Shown one piece after another: positions 46,688 to 57,890 of a DNA stretch of 64,000 nucleotides (within the stretch, counting starts at the first letter, position 1; every line of letters starts with the position of its first letter). The position numbers and the translations under genes were made by a program. This DNA comes from Prevotella sp. (GTDB taxonomy: Bacteria; Bacteroidota; Bacteroidia; Bacteroidales; Bacteroidaceae), in contig JAFPZD010000072.1 of assembly GCA_017417465.1 (NCBI GenBank), positions 51,493-115,492 on the forward strand, read 5' to 3'. Below the pieces are notes generated by a model. It was not told where the DNA came from and searched no databases. It saw only the letters and a list, made by a program, of their open reading frames with translations.

Positions 46688-49600
46688 TCACCTTGTGAGC
46701 GAGAACTTCAGTGAGAGTCCGAAGTCCTGGGTGGTGGTGGGATATGACGACGAGGAGAGCAGCGGTGTGTTGGTCTGTCGGTCGTAGTAGGCGGTGAGGG
46801 TAAGGAAGCGCGAGAGGGTGTAGTCGGCTGAAAGCGAAATCTTCAGGGCGGAGTTGCCGCTGCTGGCCGAGGAGACGCCCGAGGCGATGTCGCGGGTGAT
46901 GGCCGCCTGCTTACGGAAGGAGATGTCGAGACGGGTGTTGAGGTCGTGGTTGACGCCTCCCCTGCTGTTCGATTTGCTGTTTGACGATTTGCTGTTTGAC
47001 TTGTCGTCGTCGGCGCCGTTGGCACCCTTCTTGTTACTGCCCTTGATCTTGCGGCTGCTGCCACTGCCGAAGAGGTTGAAGTTCTGAATCTTGTAACCCA
47101 GTCCGATGACCCAGTCCTTTGAGAGCTGCTCGTTGATCTGCACGCTGGTCATCGAGAGGTTGAGCACGCGTGTGGTCTTATACTCGACCTTCGCGGTGAG
47201 GTTGTTAAGGAAGGTGACGTCGAGGCCGAGCAGTGGCGAGAATGACTCGTTGATGCTGACCGTGCTGATGTTGTAGGGCGACGACGGCGTGTAGCTACCA
47301 TCGGCGGCCTGCACATAACCCAGGTCGCCCATGTATTCGAGCCATGAGCTGTAGCTGGCGTAAGAGCCGACGCTGTAGACGGACTTATAGGCATGGTTGA
47401 GGTTGACGGACTTGAAGTGGTCGCGGAACCAAGCGAGCTTGGCGAGACCGGCATAGCGCACCGTCCAGTTGGGGAGGAGGCGCGATAGCGCGGGGAAGAT
47501 GTCGATGGAGGAGCTGCCACCAAGGGTGTAAGTAGAGAGGAACGCGGGCACGAGGACATCGGCGCTGTAGCGGTCGACGGGGTTGATATTGCCCGCCAAC
47601 GCCCCGGAATGCGAGCTGGAAGCCGAGGGATACTGCGCCTGCACACGGTCGCGGAATGCGGCGATCTTTCCACAGAACTCCTCGAACGACTTCGAGTGGT
47701 AGCCGTTGTTGGCATTGCCCATGCCCTCGAGGGCACTCTTGATGCTGATGGTGGTCATGGTGAAGGAGCCGCTGTGGGTGGTGGGCGAGCCGGCATACAT
47801 GAACTGCACGCTCTTGGCGCGGTTGACGGTGCGCGTGGCCGAAAGGTCGATCTTCAGGTCGCGGGCAGGCTCGACGGTGGCCTTGAGCTGCAGGTCCTCG
47901 GTGCTGCTCGACGTCGAGGGCGTGGCCACGGAGTCGGCACGCAGCAGCCAGTTGTTGGCGAGGGCCTTCTGCACATAGTCGTCGCCGGTGAGGCCGAAGG
48001 CGAAGTCGAGGCCCGGCGACATGACACCACCGGTGCGCTGTCCGAACATGTCACCAATGGTAGGCATGAAGCCTGGCAGGGCCATGGACGCCTGATTGCG
48101 GTAGCTGAGGTTGACGGAGCGCACCATCATGAGGAAGCGCGCCGTCTGCTGTGCGACGTTGTACCACAGCTTGTCGTCCAAGGGCGGCTTGGCGATGACG
48201 CTGATCTTCAGGTCGAGAGAGGAGACGACCGGGACCTCCTCGGTGACCACCTCTGGCTCCACGGCGGGCGTAGAGGCCACGGCGGCGGAATCGACGGCCA
48301 GGGAGTCGGAGACGGCGAGGAGCGAGTCGGGCGTGGCGTCCTGGTTGCCCTTACTGCCTTTCGACCGGTCGGCTTTCTTCTTTGACTTGTCACCCTTGCC
48401 CTGCTGCTTGCCACTCTTGCCCTGCTGCTTGTCGCTGAGTGCCTGCCAGACGTCCTTGGGCACCCAGACCTTGATCTTGTTCTCGTCGAGTGCCTTCCAC
48501 TTGATGGCAACAGCCTTGCCGTCCTTGTTCTTGGCAGAGACGATGAGGCGCTTCGACTTCTTGCCGTGCTGCACCTCGATGGTGGTATCGGGCTGGATGG
48601 TGATCTCCTTCTGGAAGGCGTTCTTGTTCTTGGGCAGCTGCTGCTTGTCCTTCGGGTCAGGGGGCGTCTCGCCCTCGGCATCCTTTCCGCCGGGCGTCTT
48701 AGCCTTGAGCTTGTCCTTGGCTTTGTCCTTGCCCTTACCCTTGGGTTCGGGCTTCTTGTTGTTAGCCGCTTTCTTGAAGCGCTCGTTGGTCTTCTTGAGG
48801 AAGGGGATATGGTTGTAGAGCGTCTCAAGGTTCAGCGCGCCATTGATGTTCAGGTTGCGGTTGTTCTGGATGGTGTTGCCCAGGGAGGTACCGTCGTCGA
48901 GCTCGGTGCCGCGCAGCCAGGAGTAGGTGGCGGAGTAGGAGGCGTCGGTCTTCAGCCAGTCGAAGATGGGGAGCTTGTCGAGGGGCACCTGGTAGCTGGC
49001 GGTGAACGACTGCTGGTAGTCGAGCGGCGTTCCCCAGTGGCCAATGGACTGCCACACGGAGTCTTTCCATGCCTGATAGTGGTCGGCGTAGAGGTCCTTG
49101 TTGATGGGCGTGTAGGGCTCCTCAATCTCGGCGTGGGTGGCCGACTGGAAGTTCATGTGCAGGTTCTTGGTGAGGTCCCAGCGTAGCGAGAAGTCACGGT
49201 TCCAGAGGAACTGCTCTGAGAAGGTGAGGGGCAGCGACGGGTTCTCGGTGTTCTCCAGGTCGCGCTCCTGCAGCTCGTAGTAGCTTCGCGAGATTTCGCT
49301 GCTGAAGGAGATGCTCTGCGGCAGATAGTTCAGACCGAAGGCCTTGGGGAACTGCGACCACTTGCTCTGTGAGCCACCCTTCTGCGAGGACTGTGACTTC
49401 TGCGATGACTGCGACTTCTGGCCACCCTTCTGGCTGGCCCCCGACTTCTGCGTCTTGTTGAAAGGCTCCCACGTCTTGTAGACGGGCGAGTACGAGTAGT
49501 TCAGCGAGCCCCGCCACTGGTCCTCGCGCTCCCAGACGGTGGTCTCGCCGGTGGTGTAGCGGTGCTGGTGGCTGTAGGAGACCGAGAGGTTAGCCGGGTC

Positions 49601-52600
49601 GAAGGGCATGGGGTGCCGCTTGTTCTTGATGCCCACGCGGGCGTTGGAGATGGAGAAGTTGCGCGTGGTGTTCTTCGTCACGGCGAGCGACTCGATGCTG
49701 TCGCGCTCCTGCCTGTTGGCAGCGGTCTCGAGGGCATCGTCGAGCTCCATGTCGGTGTCGAGCGGGTTGTATCGCGGACTGATGGTCTCCTTGGTGTAGG
49801 AGTAGTAGAGGGGCGCGTTGACCTGTGCCTTGTCGGGGAAGAACTTACCCAACTCGAGGTTGGCGGTGACGGAGTAGGACCGCTGGTTGTCGGTGGAACG
49901 CTGCATGACAGTCTCCTCGAGTCCGCCGAAGCCGTCGGTGATGTAGCGGCCCGTGAGGTTGACCGAGCCGAAGTCGGAGAGCTGCACGTTCATGGCGCCT
50001 GAGGCAGCCCAGCCACCATCGTTGTTGGCCTCGCGGAGGCGCAGCTCGTTGATCCACACCTCGCCGGACTTCATGCCGCTGGCAAGGTTGCGGACGCCGA
50101 TGATCATGGTCTTCACCTCGCCGAGGGAGGGGTTACCGATGATGGAGATCTTGTTGTTTGGCTTGTCGGGGTCGTAGTCGGTGAACAGCTGATTGTAGCT
50201 GGCTACGCCCTCGGCACGGGCCTTGTTACGAGCCTTCTTCAGGGCGGTGAAGACGCTCATGTTGATGTCGAGCATGTTCTCCTCGGGCCAGACGAGCGGG
50301 CGGTCGGAGGGCACGTTCCAGCGGTAGTTACCCTCGGGTGTGAGCTTCAGGGGGATGAGGTACTCGTAGTAGTTGCTCTTGTAGTCGGAGCCGAGGCGGA
50401 TGAAGACGGCCAGCTGGTTGTCCTCGAGCTGGGTGTTGTTAGGCACGAGGTGGTTGGCGTGTACGAACATCTGCAAGTGCTTGTACTGGCGCAGGTCGAG
50501 GTTGGTGTTCTTGTAGACGGCCTTCGACTCGTTCTGCGAGAGGTTCTTCACCACGAGGCAGAGGGCCTGCTCGTTGTTCTCGGTGAGCTGTGGCTGCGAG
50601 GGGTCGGTGGCGCGCGTGATGCCCGGCGGCAGCACGTAGGCTACGGGCTTGCGGTCGGTGTTCTCCTCGATGTTGACGGCACTCATCTCGAGGGTGCCCG
50701 TCTCAGCGCCGGCGCTGGTCTGCAGGTTCTGCTTGTACTGGCGCCACTCGCCGCGCACCAGGTCGAGGCTGCCGAAGCGGAGCACGATGGGCTGCTCGAA
50801 GCCGGTGAGGAACATGCGCATGAAGCGGATGGAGGTGAAGTCGTTGATGGAGCCCACCTTCTGTTGGTACTCGGTCAGGGGTATGCGGTACTGGTACCAG
50901 CGCACGGTGATGGAGTCGCCATTACGCAGCTTGGCGTTATAGTCGCGGTGGTCGACGATGTAGCTGTCGTCCGACTTCTGTCCGCGGTTGTAGGCCTGCA
51001 GCTCGTCGTCGCTGATGGGTATGCGGTACTGGAAGTAGCGCTCGTACTCGTTGAGGGTGAAGTCCTGGTTGATGTCCTCGACGTCGGGGCCCGTCTTGTA
51101 GCTGGTGTCGTAGGTCTCCGTCTGGTCGTCGGAGGCTGGCGAGTTGCCCTGCGGGTTGTTGATGCGCTTGTAGCGATCCATGATGCTGCGGCGCTCCTCG
51201 TCGAAGTCGGAACCACGGAAGTAGTGGTAGTTGTCGCCGGCGGGGTCCTGCTGCCAGGCCTGTAGCAACGAGTCGTTCTGGACGACGCTGCCGATGCGGC
51301 TAAGCCACTCAGCATAAGCGCCGTAGGTGCGCTCTTCCTCGTCGGTCAGTCCGTTGAGTCCGACGTCCTGCACGTTGCGGTCGGCAGTGTTGTCGAAGGC
51401 GTAGGTCTCGGATGCCTGTACGGGTATCTTTCCCCATTGCGTCTGCTGGATGGTGCTGTTGCCGTTAGGCGTCATGCCACTCTCGTGGAACTTCTTGCCG
51501 TCGCGCAGCACATCCTCGCTGACCTCGCCGAGGTTGATGTAGAGCTCGCCGCTGTAACGGCTGGAGGTGCCCTCCTTGCGGGTATAGATGAAGGGGTCGA
51601 GCATCCAGAACTCGACGTACTCGATGTTGGCCTGCTCGAAGTCGGTGGTCTCGAGCTTGCGCATCATGCCGCCCCACTTCTGGGCGGGGTTGCGCAGGGT
51701 GCCGTCGCTGTTGTAGTCGAGCGTCAGGTTGTAGGGTCCGCGCTCCTGGGGGTAGTAGGCGAGGTTGAGCACGGGCAGCGTCGACGTGGCGCCATTGTAG
51801 GTCGACTGGTCGCGGTTGGGATAGAGCTCCTTGACATACACCTCGCGGACATAGTGGTTCGACAGCTGCTCAAGGTCGCTCTTGATATGGCTCGGCGTGA
51901 GGCTACTGCTGCGACGGGTGAAGATGGGGTCGACGTTGTACCAGGCCAACAGGGCACGGTCATAGCCCGAGGCGACCGACTCCTTGTCGTTGTAGTTGGG
52001 GAACATGGTGGGCACGCTCGAGAGCACCCAAGCCTTCGGGTCGCTGACGTCGAGCAGGTTCTTGGTGTTCTCAAAATCGTCGATGTACGAGGCGTTGTCC
52101 TGCGTGCCGTGGGGCTTACCCGCAATGAGCTGGGCAAACTCGCCGTTGAAGGTGATCTGCGAGGGCTGGGTGAGGTGTAGCAGCGGCAGTCGGTCGAGCA
52201 TGTTGGTGAGCCACTGCGACTCCTGTTTCCAGTTCATGTTCAGGCCCCACAGGGTGTTGTTCAGCGGCTCCTCGCCCATCGACACCTTTGTGGTAAGGGC
52301 CTGCTCGCTGGTGTGCAGCAGGGTACCGCCGAGCGAGAAGTTCTTGGTGAAGTCGTATTGCCAGTTCAGGCCGAGCATGGTCTTGCGCTGCATGCCGTAG
52401 TTGGTGTTGTCCTCGAGCGACACCTTGACGTCGGTGCCGGCATCGATGATGCTCTGGTTGAGGATGGTGACCTCACCGGCGGAGTAGTCGACCGAGTAGT
52501 CAGTGCCCTCCTGAAGGGTGACACCGCCGGCGGTAACGACGACCGATCCCTGCGGGACGTTGTAGGCACCGAGCGAGATGACGCCGCCCTTGGCGCCCTT

Positions 52601-54838
52601 GTACTGCCCCGAGAGGATGAACTTGTCCTTCTCGGCATTCTGCTTGGCCACGGTCTTCGTCGAATCGTAGAGGGCGTCAAAGCAATATTTGTCGGCCAGG
52701 TCGGCCAGGCCTTTCTGCTTGAGGTAGGCGCGCAGGTAGTTGCCGAAGGGCTCGGCGGCGGGCAGGAAGATGCGGCCGTTGGTGACGGTGTAGCCCTGCA
52801 CGAAGTCGAACTGTCCGTTGGCGTGCGGCTTCATGTTGGCATCGAGTCGGTCGAGGCCCATGACTTTCAGCAGGGTGGTCGACTTGAGGCTCTCCTCGGG
52901 CAGGTAGGTGAGGTAGGTGCCGGTGGTGTCGCTCTGGTACTTGATGTCCATGCGGAACTTCTCCTTCTCGACCGACGTGGCCAGGTAGTAGACGTTCTTC
53001 ATCATCAGCCGCCAGTTGGCCTGCTCAGGGTTGCTGCTGGTATTCTTCAACGCCTTGACGAATAGGCACTTGCTGGTCTGGGTAACATCGGTTGAGAACT
53101 CGCCCACCTGATAGGTCTGACCGCCGTAGGTGTACTCGAAGGCGACGGCCAGCACCTGGTCGGTCTGCAGGCCGGTCTTCAGCGAGATGTAGCCGAGGGC
53201 GGTGTTCACCGTGTACTCGCTCGATGTCAGGAGGCGTGCCGACGCCAGCTTCTCGTAGTCGACGCCGCCCGTGAGCTCTGTGAACGACTCCAGGACGTTA
53301 GTCACCTGGTCGATGCCACGCGAGGCTGAGTCGATGCGGCTGACCATTGTCGAGTAGACATCGTTGGCCAGGTTCGACGGCACCTTCATACCCGTGGTGC
53401 TCCACTTGGGGTTCTTGATGTAGCTATTCTCACCCAGGTCGCTGAATGCCACGATGTTGCGGGTGTTGTTGGTATTGCCCGACTTGTTCGTAATCCACAC
53501 TTCCACGCGGTTGATCTTGATACCCGTGGTCATGTTGGGCAGCGTCTGCATGGCGCGGTCGTAGATCTCGCGGAAATTGTGTGCAAGGAAGAAGTGGCGG
53601 TTCTCCTCGTAGTCGGCGACGTCGATCTCGAAGGGCGTAGTCTGTGTGCCGCCCTTCGATGAGACACTCTTCGAGCTGCTCTTCTTCTGCGAGACGACGG
53701 TCTGCAGCTTCAGCTTGCCAAACTGCATGTCGGTGCGTATGCCGAAGAGTGCCGATGCGCCATGAACGAGCGTGTTGTTCGAGGGGAAGCTGACGTTACC
53801 GGCCTCGACGAGCTTGATGATCTCGTCCTCCTTGCCGTCATACTTCAGCTTGAGGTTCTTCGTGTCGAAGTCGAAGGTGGCGTCGGTGTTGTAGTTCAGG
53901 TTCATGTTCACCTTGTCGCCCACCTTGCCGTTGACGCTGAGGTTGATCTTCTCGTCGAAGTCGAAGGCCGTCGTCTTGCGGTTACGGATGGGCAGCGACG
54001 GGTTGTCGATGTTCTTCAGCGTGGCACCCACCTTCAGCTCGGCCGTTCCTTGTGTCTTCACGCGCACGCCGCCAGGGCCGAATATTTTCTCGGCAGGGCC
54101 AAGGTCGAACTGCATGTCGGTGAAGTCGAACTTACTCTCGCCCTTCGTCTTCACGTTGTCGGCATCCTTGACACGGAAGAACTGGTAGCGGGCGCGGCGC
54201 TCGCTCCATTTCATGTATTCCTCGGGCGTCATCACGATGGGCGTGTTGAGGTACGAGTCGCCAATCTTCGAGCCGATGTAGTAGAGATTCAGCGAGTCGT
54301 TGTACTCCACCTCCTGCTTGATGTTCTCAGGCATCTTCAGGTCGAGGGCGCTCGAGTCAAGGTCTTCGACGAGCAACGGCGTGGTGCGCTGGATGCGCCA
54401 GCGGGCGTCCAACAGCGAATCGGGGATGGTCTCGTCCTCCAAGGTGAGGGTCTTGGGCTGCGCTTTCGGCTGGGCCTTTGCCGTGGTGGCAGTGTCGCCA
54501 GCCTGCTTGCCAACATTGCGCGAGGGCAGGTTGGCACGTCCTGGCCGACGTACGCCGGGCCCATTGTCGTCGCCGCCACGGATGCCGCCAGGTCGGTCGC
54601 CGCCACGGAGACTGCCAGGACGGTCGTCAACGCCTCGGATACCGCCAGGTCGGTCGTCAACGCCACGGATGCCACCAGGGCCCTCCCCATTGCCACCGCC
54701 CATGGGTGTCGCGGTTCTCAGCGGGCTCACGCCACCCTTCGACGCGGATTGGTTCTTCCGCGTCTTGTCGTCCTGAGCCATCGTGGTCAGTGCCATGATG
54801 CCTATCAGAATCAGAAGGATGTAGAGTACTCGCTTCAC
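46688..54838 (-). CDS. sprA: Cell surface / type IX secretion translocon protein SprA
   Basis: This is a 2716-aa protein with signal peptide MKRVLYILLILIGIMALTTMAQ. SprA is the giant outer-membrane barrel through which the type IX secretion system exports proteins. Long beta-rich stretches cover most of the length, with blocks such as FDLGPAEKIFGPGGVRVKTQG and ASALFGIRTDMQFGKLKLQTVVSQKK. Family members are usually about 2400-2500 aa. Extra low-complexity segments here are an N-terminal run of PGGIRGVDDR-type 10-aa repeats (about residues 50-95), a K/P/G-rich stretch near residues 2010-2050, KQQGKSGKQQG, and KSNSKSSNSKSNS near the C-terminus. It lies 17 bp after ruvA in one transcript. Confidence 0.95.
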   Translation of the reverse strand: MKRVLYILLILIGIMALTTMAQDDKTRKNQSASKGGVSPLRTATPMGGGNGEGPGGIRGVDDRPGGIRGVDDRPGSLRGGDRPGGIRGGDDNGPGVRRPGRANLPSRNVGKQAGDTATTAKAQPKAQPKTLTLEDETIPDSLLDARWRIQRTTPLLVEDLDSSALDLKMPENIKQEVEYNDSLNLYYIGSKIGDSYLNTPIVMTPEEYMKWSERRARYQFFRVKDADNVKTKGESKFDFTDMQFDLGPAEKIFGPGGVRVKTQGTAELKVGATLKNIDNPSLPIRNRKTTAFDFDEKINLSVNGKVGDKVNMNLNYNTDATFDFDTKNLKLKYDGKEDEIIKLVEAGNVSFPSNNTLVHGASALFGIRTDMQFGKLKLQTVVSQKKSSSKSVSSKGGTQTTPFEIDVADYEENRHFFLAHNFREIYDRAMQTLPNMTTGIKINRVEVWITNKSGNTNNTRNIVAFSDLGENSYIKNPKWSTTGMKVPSNLANDVYSTMVSRIDSASRGIDQVTNVLESFTELTGGVDYEKLASARLLTSSEYTVNTALGYISLKTGLQTDQVLAVAFEYTYGGQTYQVGEFSTDVTQTSKCLFVKALKNTSSNPEQANWRLMMKNVYYLATSVEKEKFRMDIKYQSDTTGTYLTYLPEESLKSTTLLKVMGLDRLDANMKPHANGQFDFVQGYTVTNGRIFLPAAEPFGNYLRAYLKQKGLADLADKYCFDALYDSTKTVAKQNAEKDKFILSGQYKGAKGGVISLGAYNVPQGSVVVTAGGVTLQEGTDYSVDYSAGEVTILNQSIIDAGTDVKVSLEDNTNYGMQRKTMLGLNWQYDFTKNFSLGGTLLHTSEQALTTKVSMGEEPLNNTLWGLNMNWKQESQWLTNMLDRLPLLHLTQPSQITFNGEFAQLIAGKPHGTQDNASYIDDFENTKNLLDVSDPKAWVLSSVPTMFPNYNDKESVASGYDRALLAWYNVDPIFTRRSSSLTPSHIKSDLEQLSNHYVREVYVKELYPNRDQSTYNGATSTLPVLNLAYYPQERGPYNLTLDYNSDGTLRNPAQKWGGMMRKLETTDFEQANIEYVEFWMLDPFIYTRKEGTSSRYSGELYINLGEVSEDVLRDGKKFHESGMTPNGNSTIQQTQWGKIPVQASETYAFDNTADRNVQDVGLNGLTDEEERTYGAYAEWLSRIGSVVQNDSLLQAWQQDPAGDNYHYFRGSDFDEERRSIMDRYKRINNPQGNSPASDDQTETYDTSYKTGPDVEDINQDFTLNEYERYFQYRIPISDDELQAYNRGQKSDDSYIVDHRDYNAKLRNGDSITVRWYQYRIPLTEYQQKVGSINDFTSIRFMRMFLTGFEQPIVLRFGSLDLVRGEWRQYKQNLQTSAGAETGTLEMSAVNIEENTDRKPVAYVLPPGITRATDPSQPQLTENNEQALCLVVKNLSQNESKAVYKNTNLDLRQYKHLQMFVHANHLVPNNTQLEDNQLAVFIRLGSDYKSNYYEYLIPLKLTPEGNYRWNVPSDRPLVWPEENMLDINMSVFTALKKARNKARAEGVASYNQLFTDYDPDKPNNKISIIGNPSLGEVKTMIIGVRNLASGMKSGEVWINELRLREANNDGGWAASGAMNVQLSDFGSVNLTGRYITDGFGGLEETVMQRSTDNQRSYSVTANLELGKFFPDKAQVNAPLYYSYTKETISPRYNPLDTDMELDDALETAANRQERDSIESLAVTKNTTRNFSISNARVGIKNKRHPMPFDPANLSVSYSHQHRYTTGETTVWEREDQWRGSLNYSYSPVYKTWEPFNKTQKSGASQKGGQKSQSSQKSQSSQKGGSQSKWSQFPKAFGLNYLPQSISFSSEISRSYYELQERDLENTENPSLPLTFSEQFLWNRDFSLRWDLTKNLHMNFQSATHAEIEEPYTPINKDLYADHYQAWKDSVWQSIGHWGTPLDYQQSFTASYQVPLDKLPIFDWLKTDASYSATYSWLRGTELDDGTSLGNTIQNNRNLNINGALNLETLYNHIPFLKKTNERFKKAANNKKPEPKGKGKDKAKDKLKAKTPGGKDAEGETPPDPKDKQQLPKNKNAFQKEITIQPDTTIEVQHGKKSKRLIVSAKNKDGKAVAIKWKALDENKIKVWVPKDVWQALSDKQQGKSGKQQGKGDKSKKKADRSKGSKGNQDATPDSLLAVSDSLAVDSAAVASTPAVEPEVVTEEVPVVSSLDLKISVIAKPPLDDKLWYNVAQQTARFLMMVRSVNLSYRNQASMALPGFMPTIGDMFGQRTGGVMSPGLDFAFGLTGDDYVQKALANNWLLRADSVATPSTSSSTEDLQLKATVEPARDLKIDLSATRTVNRAKSVQFMYAGSPTTHSGSFTMTTISIKSALEGMGNANNGYHSKSFEEFCGKIAAFRDRVQAQYPSASSSHSGALAGNINPVDRYSADVLVPAFLSTYTLGGSSSIDIFPALSRLLPNWTVRYAGLAKLAWFRDHFKSVNLNHAYKSVYSVGSYASYSSWLEYMGDLGYVQAADGSYTPSSPYNISTVSINESFSPLLGLDVTFLNNLTAKVEYKTTRVLNLSMTSVQINEQLSKDWVIGLGYKIQNFNLFGSGSSRKIKGSNKKGANGADDDKSNSKSSNSKSNSRGGVNHDLNTRLDISFRKQAAITRDIASGVSSASSGNSALKISLSADYTLSRFLTLTAYYDRQTNTPLLSSSSYPTTTQDFGLSLKFSLTR
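54555..54690 (-). repeat. 30-bp coding repeat in the sprA N-terminus
   Basis: About four copies of a 30-bp unit code PGGIRGVDDR, PGGIRGVDDR, PGSLRGGDR, PGGIRGGDDN, before the mature conserved part of SprA. Confidence 0.8.
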
Positions 54839-55485: not shown

Positions 55486-55629
55486 AACTTGTTTCCTCGT
55501 ATATATACAACAAATTAACGTCTTCGAGGGGCGTTTATTGCCTCAGTCTATCTTTTTTCGCGGCAAAAAGGCCGGAAAAGTCGAAAAACCGCCAAAATAC
55601 AAATTGTAGCCGAATTGTAACCGCCATTA

Positions 55630-55661
55630 TTTGCCTATTTTAGCAGGTTTTTGTAATTTTG
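55630..55661 (+). promoter_or_regulatory. Promoter of the Na/Pi-PhoU-winged helix gene
   Basis: TTTG at 55630-55633 and TAATTTTG at 55654-55661 are 20 bp apart. The ATG at 55688 comes 26 nt after the box. Confidence 0.7.
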
Positions 55662-55687: not shown

Positions 55688-57661
55688 ATGACGATTGAAT
55701 TATTATTCAGGCTGCTTGGCTCGTTGGCATTGCTCATCTACGGCATGAAGATGATGAGCGACGCCTTGCAGAAGATGGCCGGACCGAGTTTACGACACAT
55801 CTTAGCCCGCATGACTGGCAACCGACTGACCGGCATGCTGACAGGAACGATGGTGACCTGCGCCGTGCAGTCATCATCGGCCACGACGGTCATGACCGTC
55901 TCGTTCGTCTCGGCAGGACTGCTCACGCTGGCACAGGCCATCTCGGTCATCATGGGCGCCAACATCGGCACCACACTCACGGCGTGGATCATGACGCTGG
56001 GCTACAACCTCGACCTGTCCGTGGTGGTGTTCCCCGCCTTCCTCATCGGCATGGTGCTCATCTACAAGAAGCGCCATCGCGTGGCTGGCGACTTCCTCTT
56101 CGGATTGGCTTTCCTGTTCTGGTCGCTGGTCATGCTGAGCAGCGTGGGGCGCGACATGGACCTCGCCCACAACGCCGATGTGGTCAGCTTCTTCGCCTCG
56201 TTCGACACCAGCAGCTACCTCACTATTATGGCCTTCCTGGCCGCCGGCACCGTCATCACGTGCGTGGTACAGTCGTCGGCAGCGGTGATGGCCATCACCA
56301 TTCTGCTTTGCTCGACGGGTGTCTTGCCCATCTACATGGGTATCGCCTTGGTGATGGGCGAAAACATCGGCACCACGGCGACTGCCAATCTGGCGGCCCT
56401 TGGCGCCGGTACCGAGGCCCGCCGTGCAGCGCTGGCCCATCTGCTGTTCAATGTGTTTGGCGTCATCTGGGTGCTGGTCGTGTTCTATCCCTTCGTCAAC
56501 ATGGTCTGCGGCCTCGTAGGCTACGACCCGACGATGGCCGGACAGGCCGAGCGGATCCCCGTCGTGCTGGCCATGTTCCACACCTGCTTCAACGTGCTGA
56601 ACACGGCCCTGCTCATCGGCTTTATCCCCCAGATGGAGCGGCTCGTCTGCAGGCTGCTGCCCGAAAACGACAAGGAGGCCAAAATGCCCACGACACTGCA
56701 CTTCATCCGTGGCGGCGTCATCCAAACGCCTGAGATCGCCATACTCCAGGCACAGAAGGAAATCGTACACTTTGCCGAACGCATGTTACGCATGTACGGC
56801 ATGACTTGTGCGCTCATCGACGAGAAGGACAAGAAAGAGTTCGACAACCAGTTTGCACGCATCGAACGCTACGAGACCATCGCCGACAACATGGAGATTG
56901 AGATTGCGAATTACCTGGAGCAGGTAGGCAACGAGCACCTCTCGGACGACACCAAGGAGAAGACGCGCGTGATGCTCCGCCAGATTGGCGAGTTGGAGTC
57001 CATTGGCGATGCCTGCTTTAAAATGGCACGAACGGTCGGCCATCTGCGTGAGAACAAGGAGGACTTCACACCCGAGCAGTACGTCAGGCTGCACGACATG
57101 TTCCGAGTGGTGAACGAGGCTGTGGTTCAGATGATTGTCGTGGTGAGCGGGCGGCGCAAGGATCTCTCGCTGGACGAATCGCTCGCCATCGAAAGCGACA
57201 TCAACGCTCTGCGCGACCAACTCAGGGCCGAGACCGTCACGGGCGTCAACTCGCATCAGTATTCCTACGCCCTCGGAACGCTTTACAACGACATCGTGGC
57301 CGACTGCGAGAAGATTGGCGACTACGTGATGAACGTCGTCGAAGCCCGTCTGGGCAAGCATCTGATCAGCTACAACGGCCTGTGCCTGAACATCGACAAG
57401 AAGACGGCAACCGTTGACGGCGACCCCGTGAGCCTTACCCGAACGGAGTTTGCGCTGCTTCACCTGCTCTTGGCAAACCGTGGCAAAGTGCTCTCACGCC
57501 AACAGCTGATGGACACGGTATGGAGTGGCGTCATCGTCTCCGACCGCACGGTGAACGTCAACATCACCCGCCTGCGCAAGAAGCTAGGGCCTTACGCCCA
57601 GAACATTGTCAGCCGCGCGGGGTTTGGGTATGGATTTGAGGAGTTAGGAGTGAGGAGTTAG
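55688..57661 (+). CDS. Na/Pi cotransporter-PhoU protein with C-terminal OmpR-type winged-helix domain
   Basis: This is a 657-aa three-part protein. Residues about 1-320 form a NptA/PNaS Na+/phosphate symporter with the duplicated motifs AVQSSSATTVMTVSF plus GANIGTT and VVQSSAAVMAITILL plus GENIGTT. Residues about 335-555 are a PhoU-like helical region (EIVHFAERMLRMYG...RQIGELESIGDACFKMART). Residues about 558-652 are a transcriptional regulator C-terminal domain (LNIDKKTATVDGDPVSLTRTEFALLHLLLANRGKVLSRQQLMDTVW, then RTVNVNITRLRKKLG and GFGYGFE), with the recognition helix intact. Ordinary family members end after PhoU. No receiver domain is present. The last residues (EELGVRS) read into an ACTCCTA-type repeat. 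Confidence 0.93.
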   Translation: MTIELLFRLLGSLALLIYGMKMMSDALQKMAGPSLRHILARMTGNRLTGMLTGTMVTCAVQSSSATTVMTVSFVSAGLLTLAQAISVIMGANIGTTLTAWIMTLGYNLDLSVVVFPAFLIGMVLIYKKRHRVAGDFLFGLAFLFWSLVMLSSVGRDMDLAHNADVVSFFASFDTSSYLTIMAFLAAGTVITCVVQSSAAVMAITILLCSTGVLPIYMGIALVMGENIGTTATANLAALGAGTEARRAALAHLLFNVFGVIWVLVVFYPFVNMVCGLVGYDPTMAGQAERIPVVLAMFHTCFNVLNTALLIGFIPQMERLVCRLLPENDKEAKMPTTLHFIRGGVIQTPEIAILQAQKEIVHFAERMLRMYGMTCALIDEKDKKEFDNQFARIERYETIADNMEIEIANYLEQVGNEHLSDDTKEKTRVMLRQIGELESIGDACFKMARTVGHLRENKEDFTPEQYVRLHDMFRVVNEAVVQMIVVVSGRRKDLSLDESLAIESDINALRDQLRAETVTGVNSHQYSYALGTLYNDIVADCEKIGDYVMNVVEARLGKHLISYNGLCLNIDKKTATVDGDPVSLTRTEFALLHLLLANRGKVLSRQQLMDTVWSGVIVSDRTVNVNITRLRKKLGPYAQNIVSRAGFGYGFEELGVRS

Positions 57662-57890
57662 AAGTTTTTTTGAGTTAGGAGTTAGGAGTTAGGAATTAGG
57701 AGTTTAGGGTTTAGAGGTATTCTCCTCTACTCCTTTACTCCTCTACTCCTTTACTCCTCTACTCCTCTACTCCTTTACTCCTTTACTCCTTACTCCTTTA
57801 CTCCTTACTCCTTTACTCCTTACTCCTTTACTCCTTACTCCTTACTCCTTTACTCCTTACTCTTTACTCTTTTTTCAACATTTTTCCGCC
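57640..57890. repeat. ACTCCTA/ACTCCTTT repeat spacer before ddh
   Basis: GAGTTAGGAGTTAGGA units run first and CTCCTCTACTCCTTTACTCC units follow, that is, the same 7-8 bp family in both orientations. The 296-bp gap contains no gene; the ddh promoter follows. Confidence 0.85.

Follow-up and report, generated by a model that had tools for sequence, protein, structure and literature searches.

Can a phosphate importer itself carry the DNA-binding domain that controls its expression? This question is raised by one gene in the window, the 64,000-nucleotide stretch of Prevotella sp. DNA analysed here. It is not settled by what route a transporter signals phosphate to PhoR and what role PhoU plays between them; in E. 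coli, PhoR and PhoU have been proposed to sense transporter conformation, and the mechanism of environmental phosphate sensing is stated as not known (both in PMC5775613). The initial annotation read the gene as a Na/Pi symporter, a PhoU-like region and an OmpR-type winged helix in one polypeptide, and proposed a membrane-bound one-component phosphate regulator by-passing a two-component system. The architecture was confirmed here by Pfam, NCBIfam and PDB-sequence matches, and the proposed regulator is the reading best supported by comparison of genomes, in which PhoB and PhoR are each recognised in one of 14 genomes carrying the fusion.

The gene is a single open reading frame without internal stops (Table 1). 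Pfam placed Na_Pi_cotrans (two stretches, best residues 15-151, E 2.6e-54), PhoU (two stretches, best 469-552, E 1.7e-7) and Trans_reg_C (residues 578-649, E 9.4e-21) above their curated cut-offs, the PhoU score being weak (whole-protein 31.9 bits versus a cut-off of 23.5). Both models of NptA-type Na/Pi symporters in NCBIfam, TIGR00704 and NF037997, scored above cut-off, QSSS-type motifs of this symporter type are legible in the sequence, and several hydrophobic segments lie between residues 1 and 314. Residues 557-651 align only to the C-terminal positions 130-225 of 225 in the Bacteroidota PhoB model NF053854 (107.6 bits, under the whole-protein cut-off of 270), and the Pfam search found no receiver domain with its phosphoacceptor aspartate in the protein. 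Among PDB sequences, it matched an SLC34A2a transporter and, from E. coli, the PhoB DNA-binding domain. Since the two symporter models are above cut-off and no whole-chain model for symporter, PhoU and winged helix stands among the best 25 of 47 NCBIfam families, annotation probably reads Na/Pi symporter only, so that such chains can be overlooked.

Table 1. Coordinates of the fusion gene, its domains and promoter elements in the window, and of the short kinases at unfused loci
Feature	Position	Strand	Basis
Candidate operator AATTGTAGCCG-AATTGTAACCG, pho-box-like, 11-bp unit directly repeated in tandem	55602..55623	+	42/44 fusion upstreams
Putative -33 element TTTG	55630..55633	+	TTTG-like block 20 bp before TAnnTTTG, 42 promoters aligned
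Putative -7 element TAATTTTG (TAnnTTTG)	55654..55661	+	Alignment of 42 promoters, window reading
Fusion gene, 657 aa	55688..57661	+	Single ORF
Na/Pi symporter domain, residues 1-330	55688..56677	+	Pfam Na_Pi_cotrans, TIGR00704, NF037997; boundary drawn by us
PhoU-like region, residues 336-555	56693..57352	+	Pfam PhoU, two stretches, and junction comparison; boundary drawn by us
PhoB-type winged helix, residues 557-652	57356..57643	+	Pfam, NCBIfam and PDB-sequence matches, conservation
Short PhoR-like kinases, about 305 residues, after npt and phoB	L142:7126-8055, L144:8834-9745, L145:7682-8608		

A chance match of the winged helix is ruled out by the Trans_reg_C E-value of 9e-21; the match that the initial annotation feared might be absent is significant. 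A frameshift or assembly join near position 57361, also raised there, is ruled out by the uninterrupted frame, which is continuous in 38 full-length fusions on public contigs. The window belongs to contig C206 of a 4.42-Mb, 278-contig assembly (G000; 90.8% complete, 5.5% contaminated), and this genome also has a second NPT-PhoU gene without winged helix. Directly 3′ of the fusion gene lie dense low-complexity repeats of the type GGAGTTAGGAGTT / TACTCCTTTACTCC (window 57655-57870), and the minus strand of the window carries a very long open reading frame (46688-54838, 2716 residues), which we take to resemble the gliding/secretion protein SprA.

How widely homologues keep the third domain was assessed by scanning public genome contigs with the winged helix, which gave 73 loci, with 38 full-length fusions and 31 stand-alone regulators among them; L034, truncated by a contig end, and the incomplete L035, L061 and L079 were excluded from the 38. 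A cultured rumen commensal, Xylanibacter ruminicola (strain D31d, L068), carries one of the full-length fusions. Among 150 congeneric genomes, the own genome counted, 14 have the fusion (G000, G001, G005, G027, G031, G032, G034, G037, G055, G071, G073, G117, G119 and G131; assemblies 74-99% complete, with the contig of G131 beginning within the gene), and the hosts are a group of rumen and gut bacteria. Some assemblies have contigs of equal length in both sets and are probably shared by them, and the counts below are of distinct sequences. In 395 genomes across the phylum, no such fusion besides that of the own genome was found among the matches listed, and none of the long-frame matches in G284, G376 and G328 adjoins an NPT domain in the genes listed.

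All three domains of the fusion are under purifying selection. The median dN/dS was 0.059 for the transporter (194 pairs), 0.089 for PhoU (64 pairs) and 0.118 for the winged helix (131 pairs, maximum 0.351), as computed from 45 distinct fusion proteins (990 pairs), of which only pairs with fewer than 0.6 synonymous differences per site were kept. Across 44 fusions, the positions of the recognition helix (about residues 619-632) are conserved at 89-100%, including R620 (91%), T621 (98%), N625 (95%) and the invariant R628, R630, K631 and K632, and R643 of the wing is kept in 98%. These helix and wing positions presumably correspond to the DNA contacts of E. coli PhoB, the equivalence being by alignment only, and the loss of DNA-contacting residues that the initial annotation had considered is not seen at the aligned positions among the fusions. 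W612 (100%) and D619 (89%) are kept as well, and we take them to align with sigma-contacting positions of E. coli PhoB; a change that marks the fusions is D623 of PhoB, which is N in 93%.

As to phoR and phoB elsewhere in the genome, neither was found in the own genome, in which no PhoR match reached E≤1e-30 with profile A1, made of six PhoR proteins drawn from these genomes (assembly 90.8% complete). By the curated PhoB model, PhoB is above cut-off in 84 of the 150 congeneric genomes, namely in 1/14 fusion genomes versus 83/136 others, and PhoR matches profile A1 at E≤1e-60 in 87/150, namely in 1/14 versus 86/136 (Fisher p 1e-4 for PhoB and 5e-5 for PhoR, with kinship among genomes ignored). 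When the comparison was restricted to genomes with completeness of 90% or more and contamination of 5% or less, PhoB was present in 0/4 fusion genomes versus 41/64 others (p 0.02, kinship again ignored). Recognisable PhoB and PhoR were therefore not found in 13 of the 14 fusion genomes (74-99% complete), and one of these, G117, is a single contig, 99% complete, with the fusion present and both proteins absent. The sole fusion genome with PhoB and PhoR, G073 (74% complete), has both on one 3.4-kb contig, which could be assembly contamination; the pair (L141, contig C3, 3453 bp) adjoins an npt fragment. Neither PhoB above cut-off nor the fusion was found in 53 of the 136 other congeners, some of whose assemblies are incomplete, and therefore loss of PhoB does not need the fusion and is common in the genus. 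Among 29 genomes including all 14 with the fusion, a stand-alone PhoU is listed only in G024, a non-fusion genome; a Pit transporter is above cut-off in 2/14 fusion genomes.

The unfused relatives of the gene point to its origin. At the four unfused loci whose genes were read throughout (L142-L145), npt is followed on the same strand by a full PhoB, whose position in L143 was taken from the search for PhoB-like regulators, and then by a short PhoR of 303-309 residues. This kinase lacks roughly the first 235 positions of the PhoR profile, presumably the sensor part, and retains two membrane segments by eye; by our count, 31 PhoR rows begin only at profile position 235-244, leaving out G059 and G138, where the PhoR halves are listed apart. 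A PhoR without the sensor region after npt and phoB suggests that sensing may already fall to the PhoU domain of the transporter in the unfused operon. A quick tree of 112 NPT-PhoU proteins places 44 of the 45 fusions in a single clade (support 100), whose sister clade (support 99, midpoint root) has 21 members, namely 19 genes of the L015-L031/L142-L145 type, one gene of G008 and the second npt of G005. Within the fetched flank, PhoB lies downstream of npt in 11 of the 17 sister loci L015-L031, directly in 10 of them and after about 0.6 kb in L030, and the remaining six are in genomes that have PhoB. The sister-clade npt of G008 (L263) has an upstream region without the promoter repeat described below, in a genome without PhoB above cut-off, and offers a natural control.

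The junction was compared in ten fusions and twelve unfused proteins. The unfused sister proteins terminate in ...VVNVVEARFGK or near it, and the fusions run from ...VVEARLGK directly into the first strand of the winged helix (...ARLGK/HLISY), nearly linker-free; hence the fusion begins at the natural C-terminus of its unfused relatives, and the end of its PhoU-like region falls close to their stop position (...VVEARFGK). The transporter domain encoded in the window is 79-85% identical to those of L015-L031, and the PhoU region 45-51%, being the part most divergent between the fusion and the sister clade. The ancestor was probably an npt-phoB-phoR operon whose PhoR had already lost its sensor region, and the simplest path from it to the fusion looks to be one in which npt lost its stop codon and PhoB its receiver domain, although the direction from operon to fusion is itself what we infer. 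The tree of winged helices has few columns and did not recover a branching order, so it is gene order, junction and transporter tree that speak for derivation from the neighbouring phoB. Weighing against it, a PhoB beside a full-length PhoR (L071, L072) has the nearest unfused winged helix (66-68%).

The 45th fusion (L014/L151, in G005) is a mixed chain. Its transporter domain belongs to another npt branch, and all fusions as one clade are rejected on the transporter columns (AU p 9e-7); on the PhoU columns, the 14 fusions used of the 45, G005 included, form one clade (support 99.8). By these trees, the PhoU part of G005 kept its kinship with the fusions, and exchange or conversion altered the transporter part. 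Compared without PhoB, the G005 winged helix shares 60-63% identity with those of other fusions; with a sister-clade PhoB it shares 65%. As neither a winged-helix clade of all fusions (p 0.97) nor one of fusions with sister PhoB (0.94) is rejected, a separate second fusion is possible as the source of the G005 winged helix. A joint move of PhoU and winged helix was considered: its PhoU half is supported, and its winged-helix half is neither supported nor rejected by the winged-helix tree. This fusion genome without PhoB above cut-off also carries a second, unfused npt (L160 / L305:2451-4139) with an exact box upstream and without the usual -7 spacing, by its sequence a possible second target.

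Pho-box-like direct repeats near phosphate genes, which the initial annotation had proposed to look for, are found before the fusion gene at fixed promoter spacing. Across fusion promoters, the 11-bp unit AATTGTAACCG occurs twice in tandem, close to the promoter, and in this it resembles the E. coli pho box. In 42 fusion promoters, aligned after selection for TAnnTTTG in range and a box score of at least 14 with others excluded, the distance from the end of the repeat to TAnnTTTG is 30 bp in 30 cases, 31 in 11 and 32 in one; a TTTG block lies between, which we take to be the -33 element, and farther upstream no likeness is visible by eye. For counting, the pattern YGTARYN5YGTARY was drawn from the fusions; no more than one mismatch was allowed, the distance to TAnnTTTG had to be 30-34 bp, and identical upstreams were counted once. 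The spaced box stands in 42 of 44 distinct fusion upstreams, and the misses are L057, with only 69 bp of upstream available, and L048, with 123 bp, whose miss falls within the range where the box usually stands. It also stands in 17 of 19 sister-clade promoters (misses L028 and L144), each at a spacing of 32, which equals the 30 of the fusions in that measure. Therefore, operator and spacing are common to the fusion and the sister operon. The spaced box was found in 0/24 npt promoters from genomes without PhoB, the sister-clade G008 included, in 0/1 promoters of the own-genome paralogue, in 0/2320 Markov-shuffled upstreams and in 0/21 npt promoters from genomes with separate phoB-phoR. As these 21, among them L140 where phoB directly follows npt, lack the spaced box, it is not established as a general PhoB box in the genus.

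When the strict spaced pattern was sought in 48 genomes (14 fusion and 34 others), 12 of the 14 fusion genomes had exactly one match each, and every one of these lay at the fusion gene; the exceptions are G131, whose contig starts within the gene, and G005, whose box fails the strict pattern. The 34 non-fusion genomes gave three matches (G084, G144, G046), and a backward control pattern gave one match in the 48. With the box-only pattern (36 genomes), the fusion genomes showed 12 own promoters and two further matches (G000 C21, G032 C30), both inside long open frames. A larger regulon was thus not found with the spaced and box-only patterns, which would miss diverged sites, and the only conserved target found by these sequence searches is the promoter of the fusion gene itself. 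Box-only matches also occur in genomes with neither PhoB nor fusion (four in G016, three in G076, three in G026), and in these same genomes box-like GTAACC/GTAGCC tandem repeats are seen at L254, L258, L261 and L251.

Based on the computed architecture, conservation, selection, operator with its spacing, PhoB/PhoR absence and sister operon, we propose, with a probability of about two in three, that the fusion is a membrane-tethered, PhoU-gated regulator of its own gene that replaces PhoR-PhoB. The Na/Pi symporter part would import phosphate, and the PhoU part, presumably on the cytoplasmic side as the C-terminus of the transporter, would read the transport or phosphate state and pass it, almost without linker, to an attached PhoB DNA-binding domain that has no receiver. 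At low phosphate, PhoU would permit a pair of winged helices to occupy the 11-bp tandem repeat next to each other, and there, just upstream of the -33 element of their own promoter, they would recruit RNA polymerase; at ample phosphate, PhoU would hold them off the DNA. With the receiver gone, pairing of the winged helices on the repeat would have to come from the membrane part or PhoU. The chain would thereby bind DNA, sense phosphate and activate rather than repress, all in a form tethered to the membrane. PhoR would be dispensable after the fusion event, and the two-component system may have collapsed stepwise: the kinase loses its sensor, PhoU becomes the sensor, the receiver is deleted, and kinase and PhoB are lost. 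That a secondary transporter is itself a transcription factor, with its transport cycle driving DNA binding and its regulon essentially its own promoter, is in our estimate an even bet.

The sign of regulation is the weakest step of this proposal. With the same parts, the winged helix could repress its own gene at ample phosphate or abundant transporter, which would also suit a single self-target, as expected for negative autoregulation, and the sequence cannot give the sign. However, the position of the repeat, just 5′ of the -33 element and not over the core promoter, is that of an activator, and activation at low phosphate is therefore favoured; the retention of W612 and D619, presumed sigma-contacting positions, likewise speaks for activation, and we regard repression as unlikely, if worth keeping in mind. 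Another version holds that the membrane keeps an inactive form and that the active one is a soluble fragment, PhoU with winged helix or the winged helix by itself, released by proteolysis or made from an internal start. Such fragments are known for other membrane-held transcription factors, and the G005 chain fits this version in that its PhoU part, unlike its transporter part, stays with the fusions; yet the nearly linker-free junction argues against it, and this version is distinctly unlikely.

Could the repeat serve another OmpR-family regulator, with the fused winged helix doing something else or nothing? A candidate is at hand, as 27 of the 29 genomes searched have a second regulator of PhoB type listed, with about 185-196 bits against NF053854. 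However, it is listed in all 7 genomes of that set that lack both PhoB and the fusion, and npt promoters of this class have the box in 0/24. The listing also omits it for G119 (81% complete) and G027 (79% complete), where fusion and box are both present, so that a different binder seems improbable. That the winged helix is a non-functional remnant of the fusion, kept by chance, is very improbable given its low dN/dS in every pair retained, the kept recognition helix and the conserved operator.

The fusion shares its Na_Pi_cotrans and C-terminal PhoU architecture with NptA-type symporters such as S. aureus NptA. Deletion of the PhoU domain of that NptA changes the output of a phosphate two-component system and nptA expression, according to PMC13170248; there, PhoU acts on a separate two-component system, whereas the fusion has the DNA-binding domain in the same chain and recognisable PhoB/PhoR are absent in 13/14 of its genomes. 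With PhoR-PhoB, exemplified by PhoRB of B. fragilis (PMC3547664), the fusion shares a Bacteroidota PhoB-type DNA-binding domain, but it has no receiver or phosphoacceptor, the kinase is absent in 13/14 fusion genomes, and the only conserved site found for it is its own promoter. The fusion protein is not a response regulator, as the receiver is absent and the kinase missing in those genomes.

ToxR/CadC and the fusion are alike in having an OmpR-type winged helix and a membrane part in one chain without phosphoryl acceptor, as PMC5936718 describes for the former. However, in ToxR/CadC the winged helix is N-terminal, with one transmembrane helix and a periplasmic sensor (same source), while in the fusion the winged helix is C-terminal (557-652), carried through PhoU on a transporter with several hydrophobic segments, and would lie on the cytoplasmic side. 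By analogy, the fusion would work like a ToxR/CadC one-component regulator without being a member of that group, since topology and sensor differ. Transporters also feed signalling outputs in Amt-kinase fusions, where the output is a histidine kinase. In LysP-CadC a transporter likewise feeds a signalling output, but the partners are separate proteins (PMC5936718), and in CbrA with STAC, named in PMC11109136, transporter-linked sensing has an output other than DNA binding in the transporter chain. A chain of Na/Pi symporter, PhoU and winged helix was not found described in the open-licence literature, judged from titles and the starts of abstracts. Within that search, the parts are known and the combined chain is not described; the 11-bp tandem repeat with fixed promoter spacing is new here, and the self-only conserved target goes beyond the initial annotation.

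In conclusion, where PhoU is joined straight to a DNA-binding domain, kinase and receiver are removed and the output of PhoU becomes testable with one protein and one promoter. If the proposal is true, these bacteria would show how a two-component system can turn into a one-component one while congeners still retain the sister operon, and the fusion would represent a natural design for a self-regulating importer.
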